Source: Mesostigma viride (taxonomy: Eukaryota > Streptophyta > Mesostigmatophyceae > Mesostigmatales > Mesostigmataceae). From it: DNA of 64,000 nt. Made by a program: the position numbers and the translations under genes. The stretch spans positions 9,454,468-9,518,467 of the forward strand of contig RPFO01000041.1 in assembly GCA_009746045.1 (NCBI GenBank), given 5' to 3'. Within the stretch, counting starts at the first letter, position 1, and every line of letters begins with the position of its first letter. Shown piece by piece: positions 11,347-57,039 of this stretch. Below the pieces are notes generated by a model that was given only the letters and a program-made list of their open reading frames with translations, had not been told where the DNA came from and searched no databases.

Positions 11347-11399
11347 GGGTGGTTTGTTTGGGTTAGGACAGATTTGTCCATTTAGGACAGTCCTGCAGC

Positions 11400-11839
11400 C
11401 AAAGCGTGAAAACATTAGCTTATTGGTGCCTTACGCATGCTTGCTTCTGCATGATAATTTTTTGAATGGGATTCAACTGTTTTTATGTGTATATAACTGC
11501 CGTCTTGTTTCACGTGTATGTATGTGAATACACAAATGTTCTCAGCATTGAGTTATGCACAATGCACATCAATTAATTTATTAAAAGTAATTAGTAATCA
11601 TGTAGACTGCGTCACGTGAGCATCGATTAAGTGAGACAACTATTCCTTGACGCAAGGCGGTCCAACGTCGTGTAAACTTGTACAAGCCGTTACTAGTTGT
11701 ATGAGAAATAAATCGTTGTCCTGATTAGCCAAGATGTTGCACTACCACAATACCCATGATGTTGCTCTTAATAATAATGCCATGTCCTATAATGCATGAA
11801 TGGGCGGTGATCTAAGCATGTCATAAAACATCCTATTCC
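11400..11839. other. E1 left subterminal non-coding region
   Basis: About 440 bp of AT-richer sequence between the left TIR and the heptamer array. Apart from the overrun of the gypsy reading frame (to 11527) I see no gene. Confidence 0.5.
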
Positions 11840-12296
11840 AGCGAGCAGCGGGCAGCGGGCAGCGGGCAGCGGGCAGCGGGCAGCGGGCAGCGGGCAGCGG
11901 GCTGCGGGCAGCGGGCTGCGGGCAGCGGGCAGCGGGCAGCGGGCAGCGGGCAGCGGGCAGCGGGCTGCGGGCAGCGGGCAGCGGGCAGCGGGCAGCGGGC
12001 AGCGGGCAGCGGGCAGCGGGCAGCGGGCAGCGGGCAGCGGGCAGCGGGCAGCGCGCAGCGGGCAGCGGGCAGCGGGCAGCGGGCAGCGGGCAGCGGGCAG
12101 CGGGCAGCGGGCAGCGGGCAGCGGGCTGCGCGCAGCGGGCAGCGGGCAGCGGGCAGCGGGCAGCGGGCAGCGGGCAGCGGGCTGCGGGCAGCGGGCTGCG
12201 GGCAGCGGGCTGCGGGCAGCGGGCAGCGGGCAGCGGGCAGCGGGCAGCGGGCAGCGGGCAGCGGGCAGCGGGCAGCGGGCAGCGGGCAGCGGGGCA
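11840..12296. repeat. Heptamer satellite (GGGCAGC)n
   Basis: About 65 tandem copies of a 7-bp unit GGGCAGC, with scattered GGGCTGC and GCGCAGC variants. It lies just downstream of the stop of the minus-strand E1 gene. All frames are open only because of the repeat. Confidence 0.95.
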
Positions 12297-12387
12297 AAGT
12301 ACTGCCAAAAAAAGGGACCCTGCTTTGGGCTGGGCGAAGCCAGCGGGTTACTCTAGTAATAATTAGTCACAAGGTCCTGTTGGGACG

Positions 12388-13286
12388 CTAACGCGGTGGC
12401 GCAAATTCGAATGGCACATACATGCGTGGCGCCTCGCGTGGCGCAGATTCACATGGCACATACATGCGCGGCGCCTCGCGTGGCGCAGATTCACATGGCA
12501 CATACATGCGCGGCGCCTCGCGTGGCGCAGATTCACATGGCACATACATGCGCGGCGCCTCGCGTGGCGCAGATTCACATGGCACATACATGCGCGGCGC
12601 CTCGCGTGGCGCAGATTCGCATGGCACATACATGCGCGGCGCCTCGCGTGGCGCAGATTCGTACGGCACATACATGCGCGGTGCCTCGCGTGGCGCAGAT
12701 TCGCATGGCACATACATGTGCGGCGCCTCGCGTGGCGCAGATTCACATGGCACATACATGCGCGGCGCCTCGCGTGGCGCAGATTCGCATGGCACATACA
12801 TGCGCGGCGCCTCGCGTGGCGCAGATTCGCATGGCACATACATGCGCGGCGCCTCGCGTGGCGCAGATTCGCATGGCACATACATGCGCGGCGCAGATTC
12901 GCATGGCACATACATGCGCGGCGCCTCGCGTGGCGCAGATTCGTATGGCACATACATGCGCGGCGCCTCGCGTGGCGCAGATTCGCGTGGCACATACATG
13001 CGCGGCGCCTCGCGTGGCGCACATTCGTATGGCACATACATGCGCGGCGCCTCGCGTGGCGCATAGTCTGGTGCCGGCACCGCTGCCGCTGTTGCCGCAG
13101 GGGGCGCACTGGCTGCCGGCACCGCTGCCGCCGCTGCCGCCGCTGCCGCCGCTGCCGCCGCTGCCGCCGCTGCCGCCGCTGCCGTGGTGGGCTCACCGGC
13201 TGCCGCCACCGCTGCTTTGGTGGGTGCGGCGGCTGCCGCCCCCGCTGCCACTGCCGCCGCCGCCTCTTTATGCTTCTGCAGCAGTC

Positions 13287-13317
<31 letters not shown>

Positions 13318-15109
13318 CTGCTGCAGCTTTGTCATCATGGCATTGAATTGCTGCTGTTGCTGTTGCTGTTGCTGCTTCATCATGCTGTCGAATTGCTGCA
13401 GCAGCGCTGCCATCCCCTTCGAATTTTCAGCCGGGGCGTCAGGCTGCTTGGCAGGCGCTGAGCCGTTTTCTGAGCGGCGCTGGCGCTTGACTGGTTTCGT
13501 CGCCGCAGCTTCTTTGGCAGGCTGCTTGCTCACGATGCGCTTGCCGCGCCCATGCACGTTGGTGACCTCCTGCAACGCGGGCAGCCCTGCAATTTGTGGG
13601 TCGGGCATGTCAGAGTCTTGTGTTATGCAAGCTGGCAGACGTGGCAGCGTAGCCGGGTATTTCGCCAAGAGGGCCGATCCTGGAAACTGCTCAGCGGACA
13701 AGATGAATGGCGGTGGGCCAGCACTCAATATCTGGGGCAGCAGGTCCGCCTTGTTCTTGATGGCCCAACTCATCACCGCCTGCATGTCCTCATTCCAAGC
13801 GGATGATGGGAGAACGCCCTTGTGCTCCAACCCCAGGGTAGTGGGAAACGTGGTGGCATTCTTGTCGTTGACAACGATGACCACTGCGTCGAAAAATCCG
13901 ATCGCGGACGGTCGCCTGGTTGGGCTGCCTTTGAGTCGGTCGAGCAAGTTTTTAAATTTCTTGTAGCGGCTCTGCCTCACAAAATGCGCGCAGATTGACG
14001 AGCTCGCGATTGCCCCCACTACCACCCCCACATGAGGCCATTCGGGGATTGCAAGGGCCACGATATCATCCTCGCTGTCGCTGGTGGAAGCACCGCCTGG
14101 TGTTTTGTGCATCCCCGGCCCTGCCGGTGGAGGAGAAAAAGCTAGTTCTTTTCTTGTGTCGCCGACATCGAAATGACGCGACGCCGAAGCCCGAAAGGTA
14201 CCAGCTGCAGGGCCCGGGGTGTTCTCCTTCTTGGAGGCGTCGCGCTCAACCACGGGAATGTGCGCGCCGCCAACAGCATGCTTGCCAACCGTGGGGCCCA
14301 TCGCAGCACGCAAAGCTGCATCACCTTGGCCGCTCTTGTCCTGATTGCCATCACCCATCGCACCCTTGCCTGCGCCGTTCTTTTCCTCCTCGCCATCACC
14401 CATCGCACCATAGCCTGCGCCGTTCTTTTCCTCCTCGCCATCACCCATCGCACCATTGCCGCCTGCGCCGTTCTTTTCCTCCTCGCCATCACCCATCGCA
14501 CCATTGCCGCCTGCGCCGTTCTTTTCCTCCTCGCCATCACCCATCGCACCATTGCCGCCTGCGCCGCTCTCCTCCTCGACGCCACCACCAAGCGCAACAC
14601 CGCCTGGGCCGTTCTTCTCCTCGACGCCACCACCCGTTGCATCATCATCGACATGACCCTCGTCATGCAATATTATCACCAGAACCCAGCTCACCATCGT
14701 CGACCCTTCCATCCACGACTTTGGCTAGCTTAACGAGTTTCCGTGATGGAACCTTAACGACCTTGCCCTTGCCGCCCAGCGAATAAAGAGCACCAAGGCC
14801 GGCCAGTTGGGCGTCGACGACCTTTTCCTTAAAATCGACAGGCGAGGCCTCCTTACTGATGGCGGTAGGCGGCCAAGGGCCGCCACACTCCTGGCAGGTC
14901 CACTCTGTGCCATCCTCACCCGCCGATGCATCCCTAAACATCCCGGTGCACAGCCCATGCAAGTGCTTGCCACACTGGCCTGAGCATGGATGGTTGGCTC
15001 CGCCCAGCAGCTCATTTTTGTCGACACTATCAAATCCGGTTGCATGATCAGCGCCGGGCAATTTCTTGCATCTATCGCCTGCGTAGCAGGGGCCGCTTGA
15101 CCCCTGCAT
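12388..15109 (-). CDS. E1 PHD-finger and poly-Q protein (gene A)
   Basis: Two overlapping minus-strand ORFs (15109-14663 and 14712-12388) appear to be one gene joined by a frameshift or an intron. The N terminus has eight zinc ligands in PHD-like C4-H-C3 order: CYAGDRC, then CSGQC, LHGLC and CQEC. A repeated acidic segment (GNGAMGDGEEEKNGAG) follows. A folded region comes next (FFDAVVIVVNDKN ... FILSAEQFPGSALLAKYPA) that is alignable with the E2 protein. Then come a Gln-rich coiled-coil stretch, a poly-Ala run and about 15 copies of a 14-residue repeat (APREAPRMYVPCES). PHD fingers usually read histone H3 tails, so a chromatin-targeting role in transposition is plausible but unproven. The gene diverges from the transposase-derived gene to its right. 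Confidence 0.7.
12400..13065 (-). repeat. 42-bp coding minisatellite in E1 gene A
   Basis: About 15 tandem copies of a 42-bp unit, encoding the 14-residue APREAPRMYVPCES repeat on the minus strand. One unit near 12890 is shortened by 27 bp, still in frame. The opposite strand is also open throughout. Confidence 0.92.
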
Positions 15110-15289
15110 TCTTCGCTTGCTACAGATTTAACCACCGGAAAATAGACAAAGATTGCACGCAACCTTCCAATAATGCCGGCTGCGATTTAACCTTCGTTTG
15201 CTGGGCGCTGCACGCTGCAATGTATCGAGTCAATTAGAAATTGCGCGGGATCTGGAACTTTGAATATATGTTTAGGCAAGAGGCTGCGG

Positions 15290-16045
15290 CGTCATTTGGC
15301 TGCAGCTGGGTAACTACTTGCGTCTTGCGGCCAAGATACGCAGCCTGCCTCGAGAGGGCTGCGTATCTTTGCCGCAGCCTGCCTCACCAGCTAAAAACCT
15401 TGCGGCCAAGATACGCAGCCTGCCTCCTCGAGGATATCCTCGAGGAGGCAGGCTGCGTATCTTGGCCGCAAGGTTTTTAGCTGGTGAGGCAGGCTGCGGC
15501 AAAGATACGCAGCCTGCCTCGGCAGCTGGGGAAGTAACTACTTGCGTCTTGCGGCCAAGATACGCAGCCTGCATCACCAGCTAAAAACCTTGCGGCCAAG
15601 ATACGCAGCCTGCCTCCTCGAGGATATCCTCGAGGAGGCAGGCTGCGTATCTTTGCCGCAGCCTGCATCACCAGCTAAAAACCTTGCGGCCAAGATACGC
15701 AGCCTGCCTCCTCGAGGATATCCTCGAGGAGGCAGGCTGCGTATCTTGGCCGCAAGGTTTTTAGCTGGTGATGCAGGCTGCGTATCTTGGCCGCAAGACG
15801 CAAGTAGTTACTTCCCCAGCTGCCGAGGCAGGCTGCGTATCTTTGCCGCAGCCTGCCTCACCAGCTAAAAACCTTGCGGCCAAGATACGCAGCCTGCCTC
15901 CTCGAGGATATCCTCGAGGAGGCAGGCTGCGTATCTTGGCCGCAAGGTTTTTAGCTGGTGAGGCAGGCTGCGGCAAAGATACGCAGCCCTCTCGAGGCAG
16001 GCTGCGTATCTTGGCCGCAAGACGCAAGTAATTACCTCCCCAGCT
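15290..16045. repeat. Nested palindromic repeat block between the E1 genes
   Basis: About 750 bp built from a few short modules: AAGATACGCAGCCTGCCTC, ACCAGCTAAAAACCTTGCGG and TTACTTGCGTCTTGCGGCC. They alternate between direct and inverted orientation. The centre CCTCGAGGATATCCTCGAGG occurs four times. The left edge (TAACTACTTGCGTCTTGCGG, from about 15309) is matched in reverse at the right edge (about 16030), so the block as a whole is one imperfect giant palindrome. It separates two divergent genes and may hold both promoters. Confidence 0.9.
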
Positions 16046-16523
16046 GCCGAAGCAGGCTGCGTACATTTTGGCGGCAAGTTCCCCAGCTGTTCGCTGCTTA
16101 GGCAAGTTGTTGCAACGACTTCGCCACGTGACTGCCAACAGGGGCGCCTGCGTTCAAGTCTTCAGTGCGTGCCCTGGCGGCACATCATTATTACGTAAAT
16201 AGCCGTGAAGCTTTCGGTACCTTAGCAGTTTATAGTTGGATTTATGGCAGACAAGGCTGACTGCAGGGTATTATTTTGTGGTTTAACAAGTGACGCCGAA
16301 ATGAATAGGCACGGAGCCGAAAAATAGCCGACGTAGTTGATTTGCATGGAGACGAGTTGTTAGCATTGATGACAAAAATGGGATTAGGTTTACACAGGAC
16401 AGTAATAGGCGCTGAGCTGCTTACTCTTATGAGGTCCGGCATCCATTCAGCGCCGGGGGAGTCCTGCTTTTGGTTTAGGTTGAAACTTTTATAAATGTTA
16501 GAGATAAAGGCTAGGATAGCAAA

Positions 16524-19318
16524 ATGGCCGAACATGTCGAGTGGGACGGAGGTATTGTCTCCGACTCGGACGACGATGACGATTTTGCGTACCATGACGG
16601 AGGGCTCGGTCGTGCTATACTGGCATCCCACGTGCCAAATGCTCTGCAACACCGACGTCCCCCGGCCCCCCATGTTGGTGGGGGTGGTGAAGAAGGTAGA
16701 GCAGCCTGCAGCCGATGAGGGGGGCAGCGAGCCTCACCTGGTCCTCTCTGTATACCGTGCCAGGAGCATGACCGTCGGATGCTTGGCATCAGTGGGACCC
16801 GAACAGCGCCACATGGCCTCTGCCGAGCAAGTCGTCCGCAAACTCCCACACAGTCACCATCGCAGCATCCGAGGTCATCCTCACCTATTGGATCCCGGCG
16901 AAGAAGCCCACCTCGCGCCACTTGGTGTCTTTGGATGCCAAGAAAAAGCTGTCTGCTGCGTGACTGACCGCGCTCAAGCAGGTGCCAAGGGACGCAGGTC
17001 ACCCGACGGTTGACTGGCAACTAGCTTCAACTCCCAAGGGTGTGGTGCGCATGGCTGAACGTTGCTGGCAAACGATCTTGGAGCAGGTGATGGGTGGCAA
17101 GCTCTGCCTGGTAGGACAACTTGTGTGCAGCTATGAGATTGTGCACGAGTCCGTCGGCGGCCGCACAGTGAACCGTCCTAGAAGATTCCATGGTCAAGTG
17201 GCAGCTGTGGACACGGAACATGGCAAGGTGGCTATGTTTTGGGGTGCTCAATGGGAAGAGCTGGCAGTGACGTGTGTGGACCTCCCAGAATTGGGGAAGA
17301 AAATCTGTGGATGCCCCGGTGTGTCCGTCCCTCCTCTGCAAGCGTCTGAGATCGCCGTTGCCGAGTCCCGCTTACGTGCGGAGGTGCACGCTGCGCTGAC
17401 CAGCGCAACTGCGCGCAGCTCGCCTGAGGCAGCGCGCGGCACGGCCGACACAACTAAGCGCAAGCCGCCTGCGCCTGCAGCAACCAGCACAGCCACGCGC
17501 AACCCACGTGCGGTGGCGACCAACTTGCGCGTAGCAGTGCGCGCCCTGAATGATAAGGCTGCAAGTGACTTGCGTGCGCCCGCGCGTGCGGCCACTGGCG
17601 CGGCTGCACCTGCCAACTGGCCTGCGCCTGCGCGCGCGGCTGCACCTGCCAACTCGCTTGCGCCTGCGCGCGCGGCAGCACCTGCCAATTCGCTTGCGCC
17701 TGCGCGCGCGGCAGCACCTGCCAACTCGCCTGCGCCTGCGCGCGCGGCAGCACCTGCCAACTCGCTTGCGCCTGCGCGCGCGGCAGCACCTGCCAACTCG
17801 CCTACGCCTGCGCGCGCGGCCACCTGCGCGGCTGCACCTGCCAACTCGCCTGCGCCTGCGCGCGCGGCAGCACCTGCCGACTGGCCTGCGCCTGCGCGCG
17901 CGGCAGCACCTGCCAACTCGCCTGCGCCTGCGCGCGCGGCCACCTGCGCGGCTGCACCTGCCAACTCGCTTGCGCCTGCGCGCGCGGCAGCACCTGCCGA
18001 CTCGCCTACGCCTGCGCCCGCGGCCACCGGCGCGGCAGCACCTGCCAAACTCGCCTGCGCCTGCGCGCGCGGCCACTGGCGCGGCTGCACCTGCCAACTC
18101 GCCTGCGCCTGCGCGCGCGGCAGCACCTGCCGACTCGCCTGCGCCTGCGCGCGCGGCAGCACCTGCCAACTCGCTTGCGCCTGCGCGCGCGGCAGCACCT
18201 GCCGACTCGCCTACGCCTGCGCCCGCGGCCACCGGCGCGGCAGCACCTGCCAAACTCGCCTGCGCCTGCGCGCGCGGCCACCTGCGCGGCTGCACCTGCC
18301 AACTCGCCTGCGCCTGCGCGCGCGGCAGCACCTGCCGACTCGCCTGCGCCTGCGCGCGCGGCTGCACCTGCCAACTCGCCTGCGCCTGCGCGCGCGGCAG
18401 CACCTGCCAACTGGCCTGCGCCTGCGCGCGCGGCAGCACCTGCCAACTCGCTTGCGCCTGCGCGCGCGGCAGCACCTGCCAACTCGCCTGCGCCTGCGCG
18501 CGCGGCCACCTGCGCGGCTGCACCTGCCAACTCGCCTGCGCCTGCGCGCGCGGCAGCACCTGCCGACTCGCCTGCGCCTGCGCGCGCGGCAGCACCTGCC
18601 AACTCGCTTGCGCCTGCGCGCGCGGCAGCACCTGCCGACTCGCCTACGCCTGCGCCCGCGGCCACCGGCGCGGCAGCACCTGCCAAACTCGCCTGCGCCT
18701 GCGCGCGCGGCCACCTGCGCGGCTGCACCTGCCAACTCGCCTGCGCCTGCGCGCGCGGCAGCACCTGCCGACTCGCCTGCGCCTGCGCGCGCGGCTGCAC
18801 CTGCCAACTCGCCTGCGCCTGCGCGCGCGGCAGCACCTGCCAACTGGCCTGCGCCTGCGCGCGCGGCAGCACCTGCCAACTCGCTTGCGCCTGCGCGCGC
18901 GGCAGCACCTGCCAACTCGCCTGCGCCTGCGCGCGCGGCCACCTGCGCGGCTGCACCTGCCAACTCGCTTGCGCCTGCGCGCGCGGCTGCACCTGCCAAC
19001 TCGCCTACGCCCGCGCCTGCGGCCACCGGCGCGGCTGCACCTGCCAACTCGCTTGCGCCTGCGCGCGCGGCCACCGGCGCGGCAGCACCTGCCAACTCGC
19101 CTGCGCCTGCGCGCGCGGCAGCACCTGCCAACTCGCTTGCGCCTGCGCGCGCGGCCACCTGCGCGGCTGCACCTCCCGACTCGCCTGCGCCTGCGCGCGC
19201 GGCAGCCGGCGCGGCTGAAGAAGATATGTTGTCTGATTCCCGTCGTCGCCGGGCACACCGTTACATAGTGTGTCCGGACAGTGATAGCGATGGAGCCCCG
19301 GAGGCTATGGAAACATGA
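16524..19318 (+). pseudogene. E1 remnant of the transposase gene: acidic start plus C-terminal domain
   Basis: ATG 16524 opens an acidic stretch like the start of the E2 gene. Almost at once the sequence changes frame to VVLYWHP, which in E2 lies after the transposase core and the minisatellite. The rest matches the E2 C-terminal domain (MAERCWQTI, LVGQLVCSYE, FHGQVAAVDTEHGKVAMFWGAQWEE, ICGCPGVSVPPLQA). The DUF7869-like core is absent, so an internal deletion removed the catalytic part. Several frameshifts occur before about 16985. After the conserved domain a minisatellite adds hundreds of Ala/Pro/Arg residues before a short Asp-rich end. The product is unlikely to be an active transposase but could still bind element ends. 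Confidence 0.72.
17565..19215 (+). repeat. 36-bp GC-rich coding minisatellite
   Basis: Tandem units of about 36 bp (GCGCCTGCGCGCGCGGCAGC...) encode APARAAAPANSP-type repeats. Higher-order blocks repeat about every 420 bp (near 18050, 18250, 18690). A one-base insertion (CCAAACTCG for CCAACTCG) at three places changes the frame, yet all frames remain open. Confidence 0.93.
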
Positions 19319-20070
19319 AGTCGCGGTTGCTACCATTGTTGCTACCAATGATTGCTATGTGTGCACCATGGCTGCCAACATTGCTGCTTCCTTTGCTGCT
19401 TCTCCGCTGATATGCCGTGCTTTTGATTCACTCTCTGCCATGCATGCCAGTATAGTGCTGCCACCATTGTCATGATGTAACTTGTCAACACCAATGCATG
19501 TTCTGATTCTGATGTGATTGATTATATTCCTGGCCTGCATGAGTCTGTTGAGGTTGTTTGTCGCTGCTGCGGCTGCTATGACCATTACTAGTGTGCTCAT
19601 GTGAGTTTTTTGCCATGTCCATTTGCGCAGTCATGGAGCATTTCAAGGTTTGCCCGAGATTTACGAGACCCAAGTGTCAGTCATTTTCCGCGAAGCCGCG
19701 ATATAATCCCTGACAGAAACTGGCAAAAACCACATGGAACATATGCAGAATCCTCCTTGATAATGTCTCATGTAGTAGATACATTCCAGCCTTTGCAATT
19801 ACAATCACGTCACTAAATTTTTAAGTATGCAAAATTACAAGCTGTGAGTGCGATTGTCTCTACTCATCATAAGATACCAGCTTGACAATCATGAATGCCC
19901 ATTTGGTTACAGCATATAAGGCAACTTGTCATTATATAACACAATTATTGACTTGAAACTCCTCGACCAATGCAAAAATTTGCCCAAACCTTCTATCAAA
20001 CTATTTTGGGAAGTCCACAGCATCCAAAAAACACATTTTTCAAATTTTCATTTAGGACAGACCTGCAGCC
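19319..20070. other. E1 right subterminal non-coding region
   Basis: About 750 bp between the end of the E1 plus-strand gene and the right TIR. It is AT-rich with short GTTGCTACCA-type repeats near 19320-19370. I see no gene here. Confidence 0.5.
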
Positions 20071-20103
20071 TCCCAAATCTGTCCTAACCCAAACAAACCA
20101 CCC

Positions 20104-27567: not shown

Positions 27568-27599
27568 GGGTGGTTTTACCGGATTAGGATACATTTTTT

Positions 27600-29164: not shown

Positions 29165-29228
<64 letters not shown>

Positions 29229-36637: not shown

Positions 36638-36639
36638 AG

Positions 36640-39197: not shown

Positions 39198-39199
39198 TG

Positions 39200-43190: not shown

Positions 43191-43199
43191 TTTTTACCA

Positions 43200-45012: not shown

Positions 45013-46545
45013 TGCTACGTATCAATACATGTGGGGGGGTGCTGCTACGTATCAATACATGTGGGGGGGTGCTGCTACGTATCAATACATGTGGGGGGGT
45101 GCTGCTACGTATCAATACACGTGGGGGGGTGCTGCTACGTATCAATACATGTGGGGGGGTGCTGCTACGTATCAATACATGTGGGGGGGTGCTGCTACGT
45201 ATCAATACATGTGGGGGGGTGCTGCTACGTATCAATACACGTGGGGGGTGCTGCTACGTATCAATACATGTGGGGGGGCTGCTACGTATCAATACATGTG
45301 GGGGGGTGCTGCTACGTATCAATACATGTGGGGGGGTGCTGCTACGTATCAATACATGTGGGGGGTGCTGCTACGTATCAATACATGTGGGGGGGTGCTG
45401 CTACGTATCAATACATGTGGGGGGTGCTGCTACGTATCAATACATGTGGGGGGGTGCTGCTACGTATCAATACATGTGGGGGGGTGCTGCTACGTATCAA
45501 TACACGTGGGGGGGTGCTGCTACGTATCAATACATGTGGGGGGGTGCTGCTACGTATCAATACATGTGGGGGGGTGCTGCTACGTATCAATACATGTGGG
45601 GGGGTGCTGCTACGTATCAATACATGTGGGGGGGTGCTACGTATCAATACATGTGGGGGGGTGCTGCTACGTATCAATACATGTGGGGGGGTGCTGCTAC
45701 GTATCAATACATGTGGGGGGGTGCTGCTACGTATCAATACATGTGGGGGGGTGCTGCTACGTATCAATACATGTGGGGGGGTGCTACGTATCAATACATG
45801 TGGGGGGGTGCTGCTAAGGTATAAAAAATAACTGTAGGAGGGGTGACATGCTATTATACATACATTGGGGGTACTGCTATAATCATAACTAGGGGGGTAG
45901 CATAAGCACGTATAATACACGTGGGGTGCTGCTACGTATCAATACATGTGGGGGGTGCTGCTACGTATCAATACATGTGGGGGGTGCTGCTACGTATCAA
46001 TACACGTGGGGGGTGCTGCTACGTATCAATACACGTGGGGGGTGCTGCTACGTATCAATACATGTGGGGGGTGCTGCTACGTATCAATACATGTGGGGGG
46101 TGCTGCTACGTATCAATACATGTGGGGGGGTGCTGCTACGTATCAATACATGTGGGGGGTGCTGCTACGTATCAATACATGTGGGGGGGGATGCTACGTA
46201 TCAATACACGTGGGGGGTGCTGCTACGTATCAATACATGTGGGGGGGTGCTGCTACGTATCAATACATGTGGGGGGGTGCTGCTACGTATCAATACATGT
46301 GGGGGGTGCTGCTACGTATCAATACATGTGGGGGGGTGCTGCTACGTATCAATACATGTGTGGGGGGGATGCTACGTATCAATACATGTGGGGGGGTGCT
46401 GCTACGTATCAATACATGTGGGGGGTGCTGCTACGTATCAATACATGTGGGGGGGTGCTGCTACGTATCAATACATGTGGGGGGGATGCTACGTATTAAT
46501 ACACGTGGGGGGGTGATGCTACGTATCAATACATGTGGGGGGTGA
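45013..46545. repeat. 30-32 bp satellite array (GCTACGTATCAATACATGTG)
   Basis: About 47 tandem copies of a unit GCTGCTACGTATCAATACATGT followed by six to eight G. There is a short interruption at 45825-45925. G-run length varies from copy to copy. Long ORFs here are products of the repeat. Confidence 0.96.
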
Positions 46546-46549
46546 TGCT

Positions 46550-47227
46550 ACGTATCATTTATTTATTCATGCCATCATCCCCCCACATTTAATTATTAAT
46601 GCCATCACCCCCCCACATTCTTTTATTCATGGCAGCACACCCCCACATTTATTTATTCATGCCATCACCCCCCCACATTTAATTATTAATGCCAGCACCC
46701 CCCAACATTCATTTATTCATGCCATCACACCCCCACATTCTTTTATTCATGGCAGCACCCCCCACATTTATTTATTCATGCCATCACCCCCCCACATTTA
46801 ATTATTAATGCCAGCACCCCCCAACATTCATTTATTCATGCCATCACACCCCCACATTCTTTTATTCATGGCAGCACCCCCCCACATTCTTTTATTCATG
46901 GCAGCACCCCCCCACATTTATTTATTCATGCCATCACACCCCCACATTCTTTTATTCATGGCAGCACCCCCCCACATTTATTTATTCATGCCATCACCCC
47001 CCACATTTAATTATTAATGCCAGCACCCCCCAACATTCATTTATTCATGCCATCACACCCCCACATTCTTTTATTCATGGCAGCACCCCCCACATTTATT
47101 TATTCATGCCATCACCCCCCCACATTTAATTATTAATGCCAGCACCCCCCCACATGCATTTATACATAGCATCCCCCCCCACATGTATTTATACGTAGCT
47201 TCCCCCCCCACATGTATTTATACGTGG
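46550..47227. repeat. Inverted partner satellite array (ACATTTATTTATTCATGCCATC)
   Basis: About 22 units of roughly 30 bp with runs of C. The reverse complement (GTGATGGCATGAATAAATGT plus G-run) is a diverged form of the preceding array, and the last units (CCACATGTATTTATACGTAGC) match it closely. The two arrays form a large imperfect inverted repeat. Confidence 0.9.
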
Positions 47228-47233
47228 TCGTAA

Positions 47234-47696
47234 GGGTCTCGCTGCGGGTAGACCCTCGGAATTTTGTTTTTGTATTGACGTTAGGGTCTCGCTGCAGCGA
47301 GACCCCAAGGAATGTCAATTTTTCATGTTTTCATGATGGGGGGTCTTTCTTTTCTCACCCTTAAAATGATTTGTTTTTGTATCGGTGTTAGGGTCTCGCT
47401 GCAGCGAGACCCCTACGAATGTCGACTTTTAATGTTTGCAAGATGGGAGGGGGCTTTCTTCGCTCACCCTAAAAATTATTTGTTTTTGTTTGACGTTAGG
47501 GTCTCGCTGCAGCGAGACCCCAAGGAATGTATACTTTTTTATGTTTGCATGATGGGAGGTTGCTTGTTTCGCTCACCCTAAAAATGATTTGTTTTTGCTT
47601 GAAGTGAGGGTCTCGCTGCAGCGAGACGCCAAAGTTTTGCATTAAACTAAATGTCCCTTTTAGAATCCACGAAAGGGTCTAGCTGCAGCGAGACCC
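47234..47696 (+). promoter_or_regulatory. Palindrome array upstream of the E3 plus-strand gene
   Basis: Six palindromes of the GGTCTCGCTGCAGCGAGACC type at 47234, 47284, 47391, 47499, 47608 and 47675. The middle four are in tandem units of 107-109 bp that also share TTTATGTTTGCATGATGGG. The array ends about 80 bp before ATG 47774. It may bind a regulator or the transposase, or may be a repeat-derived leader intron. Confidence 0.6.
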
Positions 47697-47773
47697 TCCC
47701 CATCGTTTTTCTGCCGGCGATTCAGATTCTGAATGACATTTGTGAAACTTGCTTTTTTGATATTGTTCTGCAG

Positions 47774-50700
47774 ATGTCGTCCTCCTATTCCGATTCTGTC
47801 AAGGCCACTCCCGTTTCACCCAAGATGACGTCGAACACCTCGCCGGACCGAACGGCAACGGAGGAGTTTCCTCGTTGCAGTTCGGTCCCGTAAAAGATCT
47901 TGCGAGGTCCCCCCCACCGAGTCCCCTCGCCCTCCAAGTCCAACTTGCCCCCCAGCGAGTTGGACAGAATTATACCCCCCACCTCTCTCGCTGCTGCGTC
48001 TCGCGCTCCGTCCCGCTCTCCGCCCCGTAAGTCTCCATCGCCGCCCCCCAAGTCGGCCGGAGCTACTGCGTCCCGCTCGCCGCCCCGCAAGTCCCCCAAG
48101 TCCCCCGCAACTGCGACCCGTTCGCCGAACCGCAAGTCCCCCTCTCCGCCCAAAGTTCCCCCCGCTACCGCGTCCCGCTCTCCTTCTCGCAAGTCCCCCT
48201 CGCCGTCAACCAAGAACCCCGCAACTGCGCCCGCTCGCCGTCCCGCTCTGCTTCCCCCAAGTCCCGCTCGCCGCCACCCAAGTCCCCCGCTGCTGCGTCC
48301 CGCTCGCCGTCCCCCAAGCATTCCAGTTCTAAGCGTAAGCCTGCGGCCGAGTGGGTAGAGGAAGACGACCGCACCAAAGAGCTCAGGAAGCTGAGGAAGT
48401 CTATCAGTGAGCTTGTTGAGGAGGACGAGCGCGATCAGACTAACGGGAGGCCTGAAGACCCGGAATCGCCGGTTCGGGAGTCGCGTCAGAAGCGGTTGTC
48501 CGATTTGTTAGCAATGGCCGCAAGCTTTGCTGACGAATACGCGGCTCTCGACAAGAAGGACAAGGAGAAGGAGAAGGCGGAGAGGGAGGCCATCGAGAAG
48601 GCGGAGAGGGAGAGGGTGGAGAGGGAGGAGAAGGAGAGGCTGGAGAAGGCGGAGAGGGAGGAGGAGGAGAGGGAGTACAAGGAGAAAAAGGCTGCCCAGG
48701 AGAAGGAGCACAGGATCCTGGTGGCGAAGCAGAAGGAGGAGGCGAAGAAGAAGACGGAGGCGGCAGCGAAGGAATTCTTGCGGAGGAGGCCGCTCTTTTT
48801 TTGCAGATGCGACAGGAGAGGATGAAGGCGGAAGAGGCCGCGAGGAAGATGGAGGAGGAGGCTGCGAGGAAGGAGGAGGAGGCTGCGAAGGCAGTTGAGG
48901 GGGAGAAGGACGAGAACGGGAGCCCACCCCTTCTTCACGAAGGATTTTCAGTCGATTATCAGGTATGTTTATTAATGTGAGACGTACATTTTTCAGATGG
49001 CTTGAACGGCGTGTGTGTATCGTAGAAAGGGTGGGATTTTATGTCATACATTGATCGTAAGGGTCTAGCTGCGGAGAGACGTTGACCTAGGAGTTAAGGT
49101 TGTTGACGACGACGATGTGTGGCCTTTTTTTTACTCTTGTTGTCTGCAGCCCGACACGCTGGCCATTCTGAAACAGTACCTGGCTCAGGCTGAGTCTGAG
49201 TCTGGGGTGAGTCGTAAAGCCGAAAAGGGCTTGAGAGGCTTGATCCGCTTTCTTTCGGCCGAGATAGCGTTTGCAGAGAAGTCCGGTGTCGTCGCCGTGT
49301 CCTCCAGTCAGAACATAATTTGGAAGAACGACCGCTGGGCCGTCTTGCATTGTTCGAAGCCACACAGCGAGCCATTCATGGGAAGAGGGTCGTTGGTGAC
49401 GACATGTATGAGGTTTTGAAGATCGCGCAGTCGTGCATCCTTAATCTGAAGGAGGATGTCGGACGTTACTTTCCCCGTCGTGCTTTAATATGGTCGACGC
49501 TCTTTGATGAGGTTGAAAAGTTCGAGGTCCACATTGGCTTCACATGCATCGAGGCTTCCTATATGGAAACCTTGAAAACCACTGCGTTGCATCAGCTCTT
49601 TAAACTCATGACTGGAGATATGAGAGCGGATTCGAGGGCTTCACTGTCGGAAGATGAAGTGTTTGATATTGTCAGGCAAGGATTTGTTGACACGTCCAAC
49701 AGTGACTATATCGTAATTGTGCCGGGAAGAATGAATGACGTAGGAGGATTGGAGGAGCGCGCACATGAAGTGATCGCGCATTTGGACATGGCAAGAGACC
49801 ACTTACTGCAATCTTTTGTTAAGTGGCGGACTGACTTTCTTGTCAGCCCGGACGCCAGCCTTTCGCGGGAAGCGGTCGCTTTCTTTTTGGATTGGGCTGG
49901 ACAGGTGATCCAAAGTTTCCGGCACCGGGAGGACTTCCATGTTATTCAGACATATAAGCCATACCGGGAAGTCGTCCAGGAATGGTTGGATCAAATCTCG
50001 TTGGTTGATTGTCTCCAGAGTATCCGAACCAAGACAGACACGGAGTGGTCTGATTTAGAGGCGGGAGGCCATTGGCAGTCCCTCGAGTTGTTCTTCGAGG
50101 CGGAATTGAGGCGGCAACTGGAAAAGGAGAGAGCCCATCAAGTGCCGATATGGCCTTTGGGGAAGATTTTGAGGAGGTGGAAGTTCTACGTTTCGGTACG
50201 TTAACTTGCCGATATCGTTTATCGATTTGGGTTGTTTCCATTCCCTGAATAGGGCTCTATATGCTGACCAACCTTCATGGTTTGTCCTGTCATATCATGC
50301 AGGGGGGCTCCATGCCAGGGGACGTATCGGAGGATTTACCTAATTTGTCAGACTTGGTTGATAAGGTGGGTGCTTGTCCGTCGAGTTTCCACGAGCATCT
50401 TACATGGGGTCTAGCTGCAGGTAGACCCTCACCCTTTTATTGAGACTGACATGTTCGGCTAATTTCAACGGTGCCCCCAACCAATCTGTTGTCTTTTTTC
50501 AGGGGGCGGCTGCGGCGATGGCTGTTGACAGTGCTGGTATTTGGTCTGGACTCGAGATGGAAATGGTAAGCATTAAACGATATCCGGATGTCTGCATTTC
50601 GCCTGAAGTTTTAGTGAGCGCATTATGCGAAATATACAAATATCGACTAATTTTGATTTCCAATGAGCTGTCGTATTCGGTGTTGACAGGCGGGGGGTTT

Positions 50701-53700
50701 GGCCTCAGCAGGCGCTGCCGGAGAGGAAGAAAACGCTGGAGGAGATGAGGATGGGGGGGATGAAAACGCTGGAGGAGATGAGGATGGGGGAGACGCTGAG
50801 GGAGAAGTGGCTGTGCAGGTACGTTCATCCGCCGCGAGTTCGTGTGATTTTTTTCGTGCTGAGGGGTATCTCCGCAGAGAGACGATGGTGCAACAATCGA
50901 ACTGAGGTCAAGTCCCTTCTTGTTCGTTTTTTTTTGTCATGCAGGCGGGGGCTGTCGCTGGGGGTACTGCGGGGGGGAAGGCGGCGAAGCCTCCATTGAC
51001 TGAGCATGAAAGGGAAAAGCTGGATTCCCGCAAGAAGGTTGCGAAGGATCATATTATTGCTGTTGGCCTGATCATGCTTAAGTCTCCGCCCGATGGCGTC
51101 GATTCGGAGGGACCTGCGGGGTCCGAGTTTCGCAAGTACCTGACACGACTTGAGGCGGAAGTCGATGCCGATTTCGATACGGAGGTGTTGGGTGACGCTA
51201 CCTTTAAGAGTGAATTGGCATATGAATTCGCAAATCTGGTGAAGTCGAAAGCCACCAAGAATTTCAAGTGGCAGCCTAAGGAGTACTCAGAGGCAAAGGT
51301 TGACAAGATCGAGAAATTCATGAAGGCTGATTTTCGTCGTCGGGCCGCTGAGGGAAAAAGGGCGCTGAATGCGGTGGCAAAGGCCAACAGTAAGAAGAAC
51401 GCGGAGGCGAAGGCGGCGGAGAAGGAGGCGAAGAAGGCGGAGAAGGAGAAGGCTAAGGAGGCCAAGAAGCAGCAGAAAACTGGACAGGTACGATTGTTGT
51501 GAAAATTTAGACCTCTCGCTGCGGGTAGACGCTGACCGGCTGCGGGACTTGGTGTTTAGTGTCAGTAAGGTACTATTCCAACAGAACTTTGTTCGTCCCT
51601 GAACAGGATGTCGTGGTCGGCCTAAAGATTACTGACTTGAGCAAATCCTGCGGTCCTTTTCGATTTTTTACTTCAGGATGACGGGGGGGACGAAGACGCC
51701 ACGGTGGAGAAGAAGTTACCTGGTCATGACGCCGTGTTCGCGCTGGTGAAGGATATGCTCAAGTACTGCTCGAGTAGGCGGATGGCGGACGTCGATGACC
51801 TGCCAAACTGGCCCGAGTTCTCCCCCTTTCTTGAGCTGCTCCGGTCACTCAACAAGCTTTTTAAGGAGGGGGTGCTCACGAGCAGTGGGAACCCGGACAC
51901 CGACCCTATCATTGAAAGCTGGAAGCCTTCGAAAAAGGTCGACTCGAACAAGGAGGTCAGGGACCAGAACATCCGGAAGGCCAATTCTCTCAGGGAAACG
52001 CGTTGGATTCGGCCGGCCGATTTTCAGCAGACCGGATGTTTCAGTATGCGGATCCAGACGGTCAACGCGCTTATTTTGCCAGAGGCTTTGAGGCAGCGGC
52101 GTTTAAACCTTGAAACCATTAAGGAGAACGGCCGCATTCTCCTCAATGCGCGGGACAACGCCTTGCACTTCAAGGTTGTTGTCCCGGTCTGGCAGTTCCC
52201 TTTCCAGGCGCTTGCCGAATCTCAACCTGACCTGTTCGACAAGCAAATCTTGTGCATGCCGGATTTCGTCAAGTGGCTGAAGCATTCACCACGGCGCCAA
52301 GATTGACGCGGAGGATGTGGGGTCCAGGTACTTCCGGCCCCTTTCGGATACTGAAGTCGACGTGTGGCTTAACACGGAGTCCACCACCTCTTTCCTCGCG
52401 AGAGGACTTGAGTGGCGTACCTACGCCAGGGTGGACGAGGTGGAAGCAGTTTTGCCTCAGGAGATCGAGGGCAGTCGGCAAGTTTTCAACCTGCTGTGCA
52501 ATACTGCGATGAAGTCCTACGATCCGAAATTTTTTGAGGAACGGGTACCGGTACCGTATCTGGTTCTCCGGTACGCGGTGGTGGATGGGAACCACTACTT
52601 TAAGGGGTTAAAGTCGTTTCTCAGGGGGCCGGATGGCGGGTGGGGAGAGGTTCGGGCAATGATGTGCGAGGGTGGGGCGGAGTCCAATTTCGCAAATACT
52701 CCTAAGGAGGCGGAGCACGCCTTCCAGGACCTGTTGCGGAAATTCCGTGGTGGTTACATGGGTACGAACGTCATTCTTCTCAAGGGTGGCGACCTGCTCC
52801 CGTCGTGGAGTGAGCTGCGAAATCTACCTAAGGCAAAAGAAGATGTAAGCTATCTATTTTGGCAGGGTCTAGCTGCGGGTAGACCCTCGGAATTTTCGTG
52901 GTTGTTTTTTGTGTGCGCTTCAAGTTTTTTGCGAGGGTCTCGCTGCAGCTAGACCCTCTCCTTTTTTTTGTTGGAATTTTCGTTGCGTATTGTCGGCCGT
53001 TTCTTTTTCGAATTTTGTTAGGGTCTATCCGCAGCTATACCCCTCGCCTTTTATGACTGAGTTTTGTCGTTGCTCGCTCGATGTTAATTGATGTCGCAGG
53101 CGGTGCTGACCGGCAAGCTGGAGAAGCTGTTCGACATCGCCAAGGGGGCGAATTCGGAGGACTTAGCCGTGGCGGATCGTACGCTGGGCCAGGCGTTGCT
53201 TGACGTGTGGAACTACAACAAGCTATATCTATACGGCAAAGTCACGCGTGGGAAGGGCCACTATATTGCGGATGGCCACTACACCAATCTGCTCACGTAC
53301 ATCCTCCCGGCTATGCGGCAAGCGGGGGGAAGGGAAGGGAATGTGGAGCCGGCAGCGGTGGATGTACACGAGGAGGAAGCAGAAGGAAAGAAAAAGCCGG
53401 CCCACAGCATTGCTTCAGTGCATTCCGCTTACAGTCGCACGCTGGCCAACACGTTTCTCCGTCTGACACAGGAGCAGACTGATGATCCTGCCTCAACGAA
53501 ACCCGCGCCTGAGGAGGTGATGATGCAAAGGTGCAAATTCGCCAATGCAGAGGGGGAGAAGAAAGGCCAGAAGGTCTCTTGGACTTCTTTCAGGAACTTG
53601 GCCAGCCTTCCTATGATGGACGCCGTGATCGATTGCATCATGAGCTGCCAGGTTGGACCGGAAAAGCTCACCAAGTTGGTGGAGATCGCCAAGGATGTGC

Positions 53701-56261
53701 TGGAGTGCCTGCGGCTGACCATTTGCGCCAGATTCAAGGAGGATGTGACGCTGGAAGCGCAATGCAAGGACGCAAATGGCAAGGAGTTTGTGGCGTCTCA
53801 TATTTTCGAACTCGTCTTCAATCTCCATCCTCTCGCTCGGCCGGTCGGCAGGAAGGAGATTGTGGCCAGATACCGGGAATTTTGGGATGTGGCCGTCATC
53901 ATAACGAGGAACATCGCCTACCTTCTTAAAGCCAAAAAACACGCCGCACATCTGAGGATTCCGAGAAAGGATATCAGTAATGGCAAGATCGACTTTCAGG
54001 AGATTCTGCTAAAAGAGAGCGAGGACAAGACGGTGGGTTTGGCACTTTTGGCTCCGGAAGCGTTCAGGAAGTACGCTCCAAAAGTTGGATTACTCGAAGG
54101 GGGGTGAAGGAGGCGGCGATGAAGGGGCCGGTGAAGGGGCTGGAGAAGGGGAAGGGGAAGGGGAAGGAGACGGAGGCGAAGAAGGAGGAGGAGGAGTGGG
54201 ACGTGAAGTATGAGTGGCAGAGTGTGGACTGGGGCCGTCGCCGGGTCTGGTTTTGCTGTCAGGCTAGACGGTGATGATGATGACAAGTCGCTCGTCAAGC
54301 AGGTGGCAGGCGAGGTTGCCTCAGCTTCAGCCCGCCCCTTTCCCTTGGGCAGGTCCCTTCCGTGCCTGAGCCTGCTGAACTTGGCGAACATTTGGGGTGA
54401 TAAGTGGAGTAACTTTCAGAGAGGGTGGTGGGCGTTCGGTCCTTGCCCGACAGCTTCGGACATTCCCCAACCGGGCGGGATGTACGATAATGTGCTGAAG
54501 GCTTGCGCCCACGACTTTTTCTCCAGGTTCGAACCGATGGTGATCGTGTTTGGTACCGAGACGGAGATTAAGGGGTTTCAAGAGATAGTGGAAAGGATCG
54601 GGAAAGGGAGTGAATTGTGGGAGCGGCTTGAACAGGGGGAAGGTGATGGGGGGCCTAGGCTCGGAAGGGCGAAGAAGCGAAAAGCTTCCCACGAAGCTGG
54701 GGGATCGTCCGCCGTGGTGGAGAGGGATGACCAACAGTTGTTGGAGGGAGGGGATGGAGGGGATGGAGGTCCGGCAGGAGGGTCTAACCGCGGAGAGACC
54801 CCCGTCGAGGTCAGAACGCAGCAGGCCGAACAGAGGACGGGGCCTGAAGGTGATTCGGATCCGCCTGCGGCGAAGAAGCCCGCTTCTCAAGTGACTCGAC
54901 GGGCAGTCGTGTCACTTGTTGAGGATGATGGAGGTGGGCCTTCCAAGCCTGCCGCGTCGCAGCCCGTTTTTCAGGTTCCGAAGAAGCAGCTTCGGGTTCC
55001 CCCGGCGACTCTGCCCACCCCGGCGCCTCTGCCCAGTTCTCAGGTACCGAAGAAGCAGCTTCGGGTTCCCCCGCCGACTCTGGCCATTTCTCAGGTACCG
55101 AAGAAGCAGCTTCGTAAGCCAGTTGTGGCAGTGGCTGATTCGGACGACGATGCTGAGGAGGAGGAGGAGGAGGAGGACGACGATGCTGAGGAGGAGGAGG
55201 GGGAGGAGGAGGAGGAGGAGGAGGAGGAGCAGCACGTTGCTACCAAGAAATCCGCCAAGGGTGGGAAGGCTGCGGAGCACGTTGCTTCCAAGAAATCGGC
55301 CAAGGTGGGGAAGCCTCCCAAGCCTGCCCTGCCTCAGAAACGGCGTCGAAAAGCAGTTGTGCTTTCAGATTCGGACGATGAGGAGGAGAAGGAGGAGGAG
55401 GATGGCGGCGGAGAGGAGGAGGACGGGGGAAAGGAGCGCGTTGCTTCCAAGAAGTTACCCAAGACCGCGAAGACTGCCAAGGTTGCCGAGCCCGCCAAAC
55501 CCGCCCCGGCGCCTGCCCCCCACCCCCAGACGGGGTCTACCTGCGAGCAGAGGTCGAAGGAAAAGGCCAAAAAGGGTAAGAAAAAATCTGCGAGTGAATT
55601 CTGGTATGTAGAGTGTTTTGATTTTTCACGGTTGGCAGTCCGATTTCTACTAACTCGATTTTAGTCATGCGTTGATGGCATGATCGGTTTGCTCGCAGGT
55701 AATGAGGATGTGGAGCAGTTACTTCGCTTGGCTAATGTGGCGGTGGGCTTCGGACCAGCGGCTGTACATGCTGACACTTCCGGACGGGAGGAGCCTAAGG
55801 GGGCGGAAGACAGTCAGGCGGGCGATGAGGATGATGACAAGCCCACGTTGGAAATGAGACTTATGGACGGGGAAATGGGGTTCGGAGCACCAGAGGCCTT
55901 TTGGTGTGATGGGTGGACTTTAGCCATTATGCAAGCAGGGAACAAGGATACGGCTACGCCAATGTATGCCAAGCTAGAAGACGTCATGCTTTATGGGCAG
56001 GTGTCTGGATACGACACCAAGTGGAGGGACGTCGCATTTAAGTTTTTCGCTGAGGGGGAGAAGGGAGGGAAGTTGAAGAACAAGTTGTGGTGGATGCCGC
56101 TGGACTACGCGATGAAGGTGGTAAAGCTGACGGATGGCAAGAGCTGGAAGGATGTGGAAGTCTGGGCGCCTGCAAAGGAGATCGATAAGAAGAGGAGGAA
56201 CTCGAAAACGGAACAGCAGATCGCGGAAGCGAAATTACGGAAGAGGCCCTCGAAAGTGTGA
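47774..56261 (+). CDS. E3 multi-exon plus-strand gene, large charged protein of unknown function
   Basis: Exons with GT-AG borders: 47774-48962, 49150-50195, 50303-50365, 50503-50565, 50690-50818, 50945-51487, 51677-52844, 53100 to about 55603, and 55699-56261. The start is Ser/Pro/Arg-rich (SPPRKSPSPPPKS repeats), then a Glu/Lys coiled coil. Helical unknown regions follow (exons 2, 7 and 8; LRRSLNKLFKEG-like, VAVIITRNIAYLLK). Exon 8 includes an acidic/basic tail with three VPKKQLRVP repeats. The last exon has WCDGWTLAIMQ, MLYGQVSGYDTKW and KNKLWWMPLDYAMKVV, which could be a small chromatin-reader-like barrel. One-base frameshifts lie near 48240, 48773, 49330, 52285, 54100 and elsewhere. It diverges from the transposase-like gene. 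Function unknown; it may be two genes. Confidence 0.6.
52845..53099 (+). repeat. E3 intron with three palindromes
   Basis: A single intron (GTAAGC...CGCAG) contains three variants in a row: GGTCTAGCTGCGGGTAGACC (about 52866), GGTCTCGCTGCAGCTAGACC (about 52936) and GGTCTATCCGCAGCTATACC (about 53022). Confidence 0.85.
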
Positions 56262-57039
56262 GGGAAAGTTAGCACTTGGACATGCGCTGGCAATGCTCGT
56301 CCTATGGTTAATACAAAGGTTAGGATGATGTCGAGTCTCTCCACGTAAAATTTACATGAATTACTAACTTTCAAGCCTCTCGATGTGGAATGTACGCTCA
56401 AATTGACATGAATTAAGCATTATGACACCAAATTAGCTCGAAAATACGCGATCGGACGCCAAATTCGCGCGAAAAAAAGATATCGGACGATTGAAACTAG
56501 CGTTTTTTTCTTGCAAAATGCGCCAAAAATGACCCCATTCCGCGTGGGACCACCCGTTTTAATTTATTTAGTGTACCTGGTGTTGGCATGCAAACTCAGT
56601 GCTAAACTACGTGATGCACAATGATGCAACTTGATGCTATAGTGACGTGCCACGATGTAACTTTATTAACTTCACCATTAGTCATGGGGTCAATAGGATT
56701 GCTCATTATGCCATGTTAACATGAACCATGGGTTACGTAATAGTGAAAACAGTAATCATGATGCTCCACTTGAAGTCTCCAACATGGTCATGTTTGGAAT
56801 TTTATTGATCATATTTACAATATATGAAAAGAGACAACAAACGTGGAAGCATGGCACGCCGAGGCCGATAATATATGTGTGAAATATGAAAAGAGACGAC
56901 ATCTTTGGCAAGCATGATCATATCATGCTTGCCAAACATATGAATGATATTGACCATGTCCAGAAACCATGTTTGCCAATGGTGCATTTAGGATACATTT
57001 GAAGCCGTGCAAATGTATCCTAATCCGGTAAAACCACCC
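56262..57039. other. Right subterminal regions of E3 and E2
   Basis: 56262-56555 is the non-coding right end of E3. 56556-57039 is the right end of E2, AT-rich, with a short hairpin (TGGCAAGCATGATC/GATCATATCATGCTTGCCA, near 56905-56935). I see no gene. Confidence 0.55.

Follow-up and report, generated by a model that had tools for sequence, protein, structure and literature searches.

A candidate DDD transposase domain, DUF7869, in GGGTGGT-ended transposons of the streptophyte alga Mesostigma viride

The genome of Mesostigma viride carries, within one analysed stretch of 64,000 nt (the window), three large elements that begin with the same bases. The questions raised by this locus are which enzyme moves them and whether they form a single group. 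E1, E2 and E3 are transposons bounded by perfect terminal inverted repeats (TIR) of 30, 29 and 24 bp, respectively, the first bases being GGGTGGT in all of them. E3, which has an inner inverted repeat besides its TIR, is nested within E2. The target site duplications (TSD) in the window are CCC for E1 and CTT for E2 (3 bp) and GTTT for E3 (4 bp). Each element contains two divergent genes (or gene regions), separated by 339-bp perfect inverted arms in E1, by tandem repeats in E2 and by a 2.2-kb stretch of 30-bp tandem repeats in E3. The putative transposase is encoded by the right gene in E1 and E2 and by the left gene in E3. The original prediction had described these ends with their coordinates, the 3-4 bp flank repeats, the nesting of E3, and the divergent genes with a repeat-rich or palindromic stretch between them, all of which is confirmed (Table 1). 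Very probably, E1 and E2 represent two families within a single cut-and-paste group that uses a DUF7869 transposase, and E3 is a separate element, possibly a distant relative.

Table 1. Positions of the features of E1, E2 and E3 in the window.
Feature	Position	Strand	Details
E1 element	11347..20103		8757 bp; non-autonomous copy; TIR, TSD CCC, at least 38 good genome matches
E1 left TIR	11347..11376	+	30 bp, perfect
E1 right TIR	20074..20103	-	30 bp, perfect
E1 TSD CCC	11344..11346 (left), 20104-20106 (right)		
E1 left subterminal sites TAGGACAG	11364 and 11383 (span 11364..11390)	+	offsets 17, 36
E1 right subterminal sites TAGGACAG	20053 and 20079-20086 (span 20053..20086)	+ and -	offset 43 (+), offset 17 (-)
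E1 left gene	12388..15127	-	PHD-like zinc finger, Q-rich, repeat tail; ORF pieces 14663-15127, 12388-14724
E1 palindromic region	15315..16030		arms 15315-15653/15692-16030, 339 bp perfect
E1 right gene remnant	16495..19318	+	C-terminal domain and repeat tail only; DUF7869 absent
E2 element	27568..57039		29472 bp with E3, ~10.26 kb without; TIR, unoccupied paralogous site, at least 40 left-end matches
E2 left TIR	27568..27596	+	29 bp; sites TAGGATACATTT at 27585, 27604 (offsets 17, 36)
E2 right TIR and sites	56989..57039	-	TIR 57011-57039; sites 57011-57022 (-, offset 17), 56989 (+, offset 43 as 8-mer)
E2 TSD CTT	27565..27567 (left), 57040-57042 (right)		
E2 left gene	28262..30751	-	PHD-like; ORF pieces 30362-30751, 29938-30615, 28262-30079
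E2 intergenic tandem repeats	30896..31910		
E2 right gene	31916..36637	+	transposase candidate; two frames between ~32450 and ~32750
E2 DUF7869 (PF25273) match	33227..33685	+	E 8.6e-16; 8.4e-17 on shorter piece
E2 candidate catalytic D codons	D1 33056 or 33065, D2 33341, D3 33464	+	D1 upstream of DUF7869 match
E3 element	37347..56555		19209 bp, inserted in E2; TIR, TSD GTTT, at least 40 identical left-end matches
E3 TIR	37347..37370 (left), 56532-56555 (right)	+ (left)	24 bp
E3 TSD GTTT	37343..37346 (left), 56556-56559 (right)		
E3 left gene	39465..43097	-	putative transposase; exons 43097-41625, 41469-40693, 40211-39465; tblastn of P0001/P0002
Possible short first exon, E3 left gene	~43543-43442	-	
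E3 candidate D codons, left gene	ending 41266, 41011, 40882	-	
E3 30-bp tandem repeats between genes	45009..47221		45009-46557 and 46556-47221
E3 right gene(s)	49218..56261	+	series of ORFs without a Pfam match above cut-off
22-bp palindrome GGGTCTMGCTGCAGCKAGACCC	38314..54801		24 dispersed sites within E3 (≤6 mismatches)
Second, interrupted E3 copy	57120..64000	+	57120-58067, 59844-60169, 63840-64000; 92-96% identity to E3

The left ends of the three elements were searched against the 440-Mb genome, the resulting counts being lower bounds. The E1 left end gives at least 38 good matches (94-100% identity over 121 or more of 154 bases; best 40 of 89 candidates), and at least 23 of these are 100% identical over all 154 bases, both counts including the window copy. 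All 40 matches of the E2 left end are 98-100% identical over 193 bases (best 40 of 276 candidates), and all 40 of the E3 left end are 100% identical over 214 bases (best 40 of 482). Such identical copies suggest recent activity in this early-branching streptophyte alga, where E1, E2 and E3 have apparently all moved recently. Copies were chosen by their left-end match, which makes the presence of that end a matter of construction; the test is whether constant sequence gives way to differing sequence at GGGTGGT. The 20 E2 copies and 9 E3 copies fetched all begin exactly at this heptamer, with differing flanks, and the E1 left flanks differ in 4 plus-strand copies and in 11 copies with both ends. 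This search, proposed together with the prediction, shows the elements to be multi-copy. An exact 3-bp TSD is present in 12 of the 16 E1 copies with both ends (8/11, 3/4 and the window copy), and the remaining 4 have no matching TSD. For E3 the TSD length rests on two copies with both ends, the window copy and one on C1491 (GGGT, also 4 bp); in 8 of 9 sampled copies, no right end turned up in the stretches where it was guessed to lie.

Further support for the ends of E2 comes from a paralogous site in the window that carries no insertion. When the sequences on either side of E2 are joined, they align to ~62635-63535, and the alignment spans the junction (~63292/63293); its score of 148 is not reached by any of 1000 right-flank shuffles (highest 144). 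A comparable alignment for E3, between the joined E2 flanks and the matching part of E1, runs through the junction with a score of 118 (shuffled maximum 89 in 30 shuffles), but shuffles of the right part only score 118 or more in 58 of 100 cases, so that this alignment gives no support to an empty E3 site. E1, E2 and E3 are genuine, multi-copy cut-and-paste TIR transposons.

The proteins and the end motifs tie E1 to E2. BLASTP aligns the left genes at 52% identity over 71 aa and the right genes at 56% over 142 aa. The protein families that the original prediction assigned to both elements are thus upheld, but the right gene of the window E1 lacks the catalytic part, and no Pfam family is listed for this remnant. 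The end-proximal motifs stand in four copies at identical offsets in E1 and E2 (17 and 36 on the left, 17 and 43 on the right), and the same offsets are kept in 4/4 DUF7869-bearing copies of the E1 family. The 8-mer TAGGACAG has only 4 exact copies in the whole window, all at the E1 ends. DUF7869 is found with three conserved D motifs in both families and scores 58.5 and 61.8 bits in E2 and 52.2 bits in the E1-family copy L014, the Pfam gathering cut-off being 26 bits. Judged by these sequences, E1 and E2 form a single group at superfamily level.

PF25273 is catalogued in Pfam as a domain of unknown function. The name DUF7869 was not found in the literature searched, and we know of no element with described ends and duplications for this domain. 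Its motifs, rather than the predicted folds, which cover E3 only, make it most likely a DDD nuclease of the RNase H-like kind, and we infer that it is a DDD transposase domain. E1 and E2 suggest that this domain does the cutting in a transposon group that has no name yet. The E2 right gene as a protein query gives no relative at E ≤0.001 (best 7965 candidates; second search, 4880 candidates). Viral contigs yield no confirmed relative of the E2 domain, of the E3 relative P0002, of A1 or of A2, and phage records no match to the E2 domain; a PDB sequence search returns nothing for P0002 and two chance-level rows for E2. The E2 right gene lies in two frames where L014 has one ORF, and the window copy of E2 is therefore probably broken.

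Members of the E1 family either carry the domain or lack it. DUF7869 is present in four fetched copies of 10.1-10.5 kb; two of these, L014 and L025, contain a complete divergent ORF pair (1463 and 894 aa) free of introns, the left gene being the single 894-aa ORF. DUF7869 is absent from 14 of 18 informative E1 copies, and for this reason the idea that the window E1 is simply a damaged copy was dropped. The window E1 is a non-autonomous derivative that retains the two ends and the partner gene but has lost the catalytic domain. The left ends of the copies without DUF7869 are identical to those of the copies that bear it, which makes movement in trans likely. The same identity could be read as a sign that DUF7869 belongs to a captured or an accessory gene, that the true transposase lies elsewhere and that the enzyme of another element moves E1 and E2. 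This is very improbable, given that the three-D domain is found in both families alongside diverged end motifs, that the sole other gene is PHD-like and that no other transposase profile is listed in E1 or E2.

If DUF7869 is the transposase, the right-gene protein is predicted to bind the TAGGAYA-type motif that lies 17 bp inside either end. The second motif copies, 36 bp from the left end in the same orientation and 43 bp from the right end in inverted orientation, may distinguish the ends and aid their pairing. The enzyme would cut at GGGTGGT and join the ends to the target with a 3-bp stagger. The left-gene product, PHD-like and Q-rich, would act as a partner, perhaps in chromatin targeting or end pairing, and the window E1 would presumably be mobilised in trans by the 10.1-10.5 kb copies, at least two of which have both ORFs complete. 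Should this be true, a Pfam domain of unknown function would acquire one, transposition. Its function is open to direct test, since intact two-ORF copies are available, together with precise ends, known end motifs, a rule for the TSD and matched copies that lack the domain. The conserved asymmetric motif layout also offers a system to study how a transposase discriminates left from right ends.

CACTA elements have subterminal repeats and two genes, and the KDZ (Kyakuja-Dileera-Zisupton) elements of algae and fungi are large and carry a transposase together with other genes. No transposase profile of Academ, KDZ, Zator, hAT, MULE, PIF/Harbinger or another named superfamily is among the Pfam matches listed (E ≤1, some queries ≤10), which leaves room for remote kinship. 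The original prediction had named no superfamily and had mentioned CACTA and Academ as possible known homes of these proteins; neither appears in the Pfam matches listed. The family that the catalytic domain does match in Pfam is DUF7869. The 3-bp TSD and subterminal repeats of E1 and E2 resemble CACTA, and both TSD lengths, 3 bp and the 4 bp of E3, fall within the 2-5 bp of the CACTA-Mirage-Chapaev-Transib clade. A PHD-bearing partner occurs in RAG-type elements, according to PMC4411706. That E1 and E2 are a divergent branch of this clade has nevertheless hardly any probability and is already contradicted, since the termini are GGG..CCC and not CA..TG, no CACTA Pfam family is listed, and the C(2)C and H(3-4)H motifs, common to the clade between D2 and the last catalytic residue according to PMC12730594, are absent from the D2-D3 stretch (42-44 residues) of E2, P0001 and P0002.

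The arrangement of E1 and E2, a transposase candidate head-to-head with a PHD-like gene, recalls RAG1-RAG2 and TransibSU, in which, according to PMC4411706, the genes for a DDE transposase and for a protein with a PHD-like finger lie head-to-head. On the other hand, Transib has a 5-bp TSD and a different transposase, and the E1/E2 partner matches PHD only below the Pfam cut-off in all three proteins (E 0.005 for the E1 left gene, 0.0098 and 0.063), with no Kelch match listed. Zator/ISAzo13 shares the 3-bp TSD, as given in PMC10045372, but no ISAzo13 transposase profile is listed for E1/E2. Kyakuja, as described in PMC12730594, has a 7-bp TSD and CA..TG ends without TIR, unlike E1 and E2.

E3 is the harder case. 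As predicted, BLASTP detects no similarity between its proteins and those of E1 and E2, and the single plan proposed for the three elements holds for E1 and E2, whereas the membership of E3 is not established. The N-terminal exon as query (best 7994 candidates) retrieves two gene models of Mesostigma: P0001, which is the same protein, and P0002, at 52%. Structure prediction gives, with moderate confidence, RNase H-like fold matches for the transposase core. The mean pLDDT of the E3 model is 52 (53-67 about strand 5, below 40 beyond it, where D196 is located) and that of full-length P0002 is 31. Foldseek TM-scores by E3 model length reach at most 0.35 among the matches listed; Hermes is the only transposase among them, which excludes nothing. 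E3 would be a cut-and-paste element in its own right that uses a 4-bp stagger and encodes its RNase H-like transposase in several exons.

Alternatively, all three elements may belong to one GGGTGGT superfamily in which the E3 left-gene protein is a highly diverged DUF7869 transposase and the TSD changed from 3 to 4 bp, a reading with somewhat less than an even chance. The first seven bases are identical and in register, the divergent two-gene plan is kept throughout, and the D2-D3 distance is 41 in E2 versus 43 in E3. P0002 matches DUF7869 at 12.3-14.8 bits (E 0.022-0.12), under the 26-bit cut-off, as the sole family listed or beside TniQ (E 0.11, also below cut-off), and its D2 falls in the same profile column. 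Against this, the E3 exon itself and 1/3 of the P0002 pieces have no DUF7869 match, neither BLASTP nor hhalign finds anything (probability 0.05, P 0.85 over 4 columns, with two sequences per side and little power), the TSD is 4 bp rather than 3 bp, and the E3 gene has introns that L014 and L025 lack. Slightly less probable again is the fuller proposal that DUF7869 and the diverged E3 family form one unrecognised eukaryotic DDD transposon superfamily with GGGTGGT ends, a divergent partner gene and left-right end-motif asymmetry in E1/E2, partly still active in Mesostigma. Chromatin-reader-like folds, seen by eye in C-terminal pieces of E1, E2 and E3, were set aside, these pieces having no Pfam match.

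The palindrome GGGTCTMGCTGCAGCKAGACCC is a peculiarity of E3. In the window, 29 of 30 sites lie in E3 or its second copy, with 0 in the three transposase exons and 3 in the right-gene ORF spans. Shuffled controls give a mean of 0.42 sites, yet one of 200 shuffles gave 27. Palindromes and arrays might mark E3 as other than a plain transposon, for instance if binding of the palindrome by the partner served replication, the control of silencing or RNA processing. This is unlikely, the TIR and the 4-bp TSD of E3 matching ordinary transposition.

E1, E2 and E3 are real, multi-copy transposons with terminal inverted repeats (TIR), apparently recent. E1 and E2 very probably constitute a group based on DUF7869 (Pfam PF25273, a domain of unknown function) with 3-bp target duplications (TSD). 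E3 is a further cut-and-paste element: its TSD is 4 bp long, its transposase is probably RNase H-like and its kinship is uncertain. The original prediction of one plan in three elements is retained for E1 and E2 and left uncertain for E3.

Features of the three elements and of neighbouring DNA, in positions of the window unless offsets are stated
Feature	Position	Particulars
E1	11347-20103	perfect TIR 30 bp; TSD CCC
E2	27568-57039	perfect TIR 29 bp; TSD CTT
E3, nested in E2	37347-56555	perfect TIR 24 bp; TSD GTTT
TAGGACAG, E1 left end	offsets 17, 36	+, +
TAGGACAG, E1 right end	offsets 17, 43	-, +
E1 intergenic palindrome	15315-16030	339-bp perfect arms made of shorter palindromes
Diverged duplicate of E2 flanks	62635-63535	without E2
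Repeated DNA around E2 insertion	26995-27566; 62730-63291	73% identical
GGGTCTMGCTGCAGCKAGACCC sites in E3	38314-54801	scattered
GGGTCTMGCTGCAGCKAGACCC site at possible first exon of E3	43442	overlapping
Second E3 copy	57120-64000	92-96% identity to E3; left part missing
Interruptions of second E3 copy	58068-59843; 60170-63839
Direct repeat	60438-60605; 63514-63681	168 bp, 100%
Direct repeat	61443-61569; 63715-63841	127 bp, 99%

The predicted inverted repeats of 24-30 bp starting with GGGTGGT and flanking repeats of 3-4 bp are both present in the window. The TIR of E1 and E2 are similar over much of their length, whereas that of E3 agrees with them in the first seven bases alone.

The left ends were searched in the 440-Mb assembly, where the window occupies 9454468-9518467 of contig C1579, and the best 40 candidates of each were scored, the counts being lower bounds. 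This search, proposed with the original prediction, returns at least 38 E1, 40 E2 and 40 E3 left ends. Among the best 40 E1 candidates, 38 match over 121 or more of the 154 bases, and 23 are 100% identical across all 154 (window copy counted). The best 40 of 276 E2 candidates are all full length at 98-100%, and the best 40 of 482 for E3 are all 100%. The portion consulted of the Mesostigma genome paper gives a size estimate of 329 Mb and a repeat annotation by MITE-hunter, LTRharvest and RepeatModeler (PMC7027972).

Twenty E1 copies, picked by left-end match, were fetched. Both ends lie inside the fetched piece in 11, with an exact 3-bp duplication in eight and a 4-bp duplication in none. The right ends of four longer copies, fetched separately, were all located (3-bp duplication in three), which brings the total to 12 of 16 copies with both ends, window copy included. 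The predicted left boundaries recur elsewhere in the genome: all 20 fetched E2 left ends, with 20 distinct flanks, and all nine of E3, likewise with differing flanks, start exactly at GGGTGGT. The E3 right end was located in one of nine guessed stretches (at 19,697 bp, with a 4-bp duplication GGGT); therefore, with the window E3, the 4-bp rule is based on two of two copies with both ends. The other eight contain no right end at 16.1-22.1 kb: one is still within the E3 tandem arrays where the stretch ends, in four the similarity breaks off short of the E3 end, one aligns with E3 solely in reverse orientation and two lack a match over 200 bp. In two sampled E3 copies, L082/L066 (contig C887) and L086 (C58), the match to the window E3 ends near-identically, at E3 ~16583-16587, which hints at a variant with a different right part or at an insertion.

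The DNA around the E2 insertion is itself repeated in the window, and an unoccupied site is therefore available for comparison. The alignment has no gaps near the junction, and 17 of 20 bases to its right match. It scores 148 after removing one CTT and 142 keeping both; none of 1000 right-flank shuffles reaches 148 (highest 144). Since the duplicate flanks align across the junction, E2 is one unit of 29.5 kb containing E3, or ~10.26 kb without it. The equivalent test for E3, with E1 as comparison, shows nothing (58 of 100 right-part shuffles score equal or higher).

The E2 right gene, the putative transposase, contains DUF7869 (E 8.6e-16; 8.4e-17 with a shorter piece). The prediction that E1 and E2 share both protein families is borne out: their right genes match at 56% across 142 aa and their PHD-like left genes at 52% across 71 aa, although the window E1 retains only the C-terminal part of its right gene. 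Fuller copies were looked for, and four of the 20 fetched (L012, L014, L017 and L025; 10.1-10.5 kb) carry DUF7869 (58-61% to E2) preceded by the N-terminal and followed by the C-terminal part. The C-terminal part is seen in 18 of the 20 pieces, 14 of them without DUF7869. L014 (10.2 kb) and L025 (10.1 kb) each have two uninterrupted, divergent ORFs without introns, of 1463 and 894 aa, matching in L014 DUF7869 (E 7.5e-14) and, below the Pfam cut-off, PHD (E 0.063), respectively. The L012 right gene is split in two frames. Because its right gene is split across frames where L014 has one ORF, the window E2 is probably dead, aside from carrying E3. The E1 palindrome occupies the region where fuller copies hold the right-gene start.

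The E1 and E2 families conserve N(L/I)DKLDHAK, LQ.DGGSENRN and GHTHAD.DQKFGVL, a pattern in which three D residues (D1-D3) may be catalytic. D2 is separated from D3 by 41 residues in E2 and by 43 in E3, and neither interval contains a C(2)C or H(3-4)H motif. Such motifs are shared by CMC-clade elements, described in the portion consulted as having mostly CA..TG ends and TSD of 2-5 bp (PMC12730594). Zator has 3-bp TSD (PMC10045372, excerpt, which counts 23 Repbase superfamilies at that time), and the RAG1/RAG2-type plan places a transposase head-to-head with a Kelch-PHD protein (PMC4411706, excerpt). As these excerpts describe them, none matches E1/E2 as a whole. No mention of DUF7869 was found in the literature searched, and no E1/E2-type element was recognised in titles and abstract openings on new superfamilies or in part of an Ectocarpus transposon paper (PMC12477816). 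The comparison covered this literature, and an unpublished or database-only name, as in Repbase, is therefore possible.

All four occurrences of TAGGACAG in the 64 kb lie at the E1 ends, and all four of TAGGATACATTT (up to one mismatch) at the E2 ends, at matching offsets. In the four E1 copies that bear DUF7869, the identical four sites recur and there are none besides. Between E1 and E2, position and orientation are kept and the motif sequence is changed, as would be expected of transposase binding sites co-evolving with the protein. The asymmetric layout could distinguish left from right end.

An exon of the E3 left gene, its putative transposase, is 100% identical to the gene model jgi/Mesvir1 over 84% of the query. 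The 22-bp palindrome GGGTCTMGCTGCAGCKAGACCC, with a CTGCAG centre, has 30 sites in the window (up to six mismatches): 24 in E3, five in its second copy and one elsewhere. They lie mostly in non-coding parts, transposase-gene introns among them; the three transposase exons have none, and three sites fall within ORF spans of the right gene. Shuffled palindromes (200) average 0.42 sites, one giving 27. As a guess, GGGTCTMGCTGCAGCKAGACCC could be the site of a putative dimeric E3 protein.

Around the first interruption of the second E3 copy the matched E3 stretches overlap by 8 bp, which may be a target duplication. The two direct repeats lie in the other insertion and possibly represent either another element or a locally arisen duplication.
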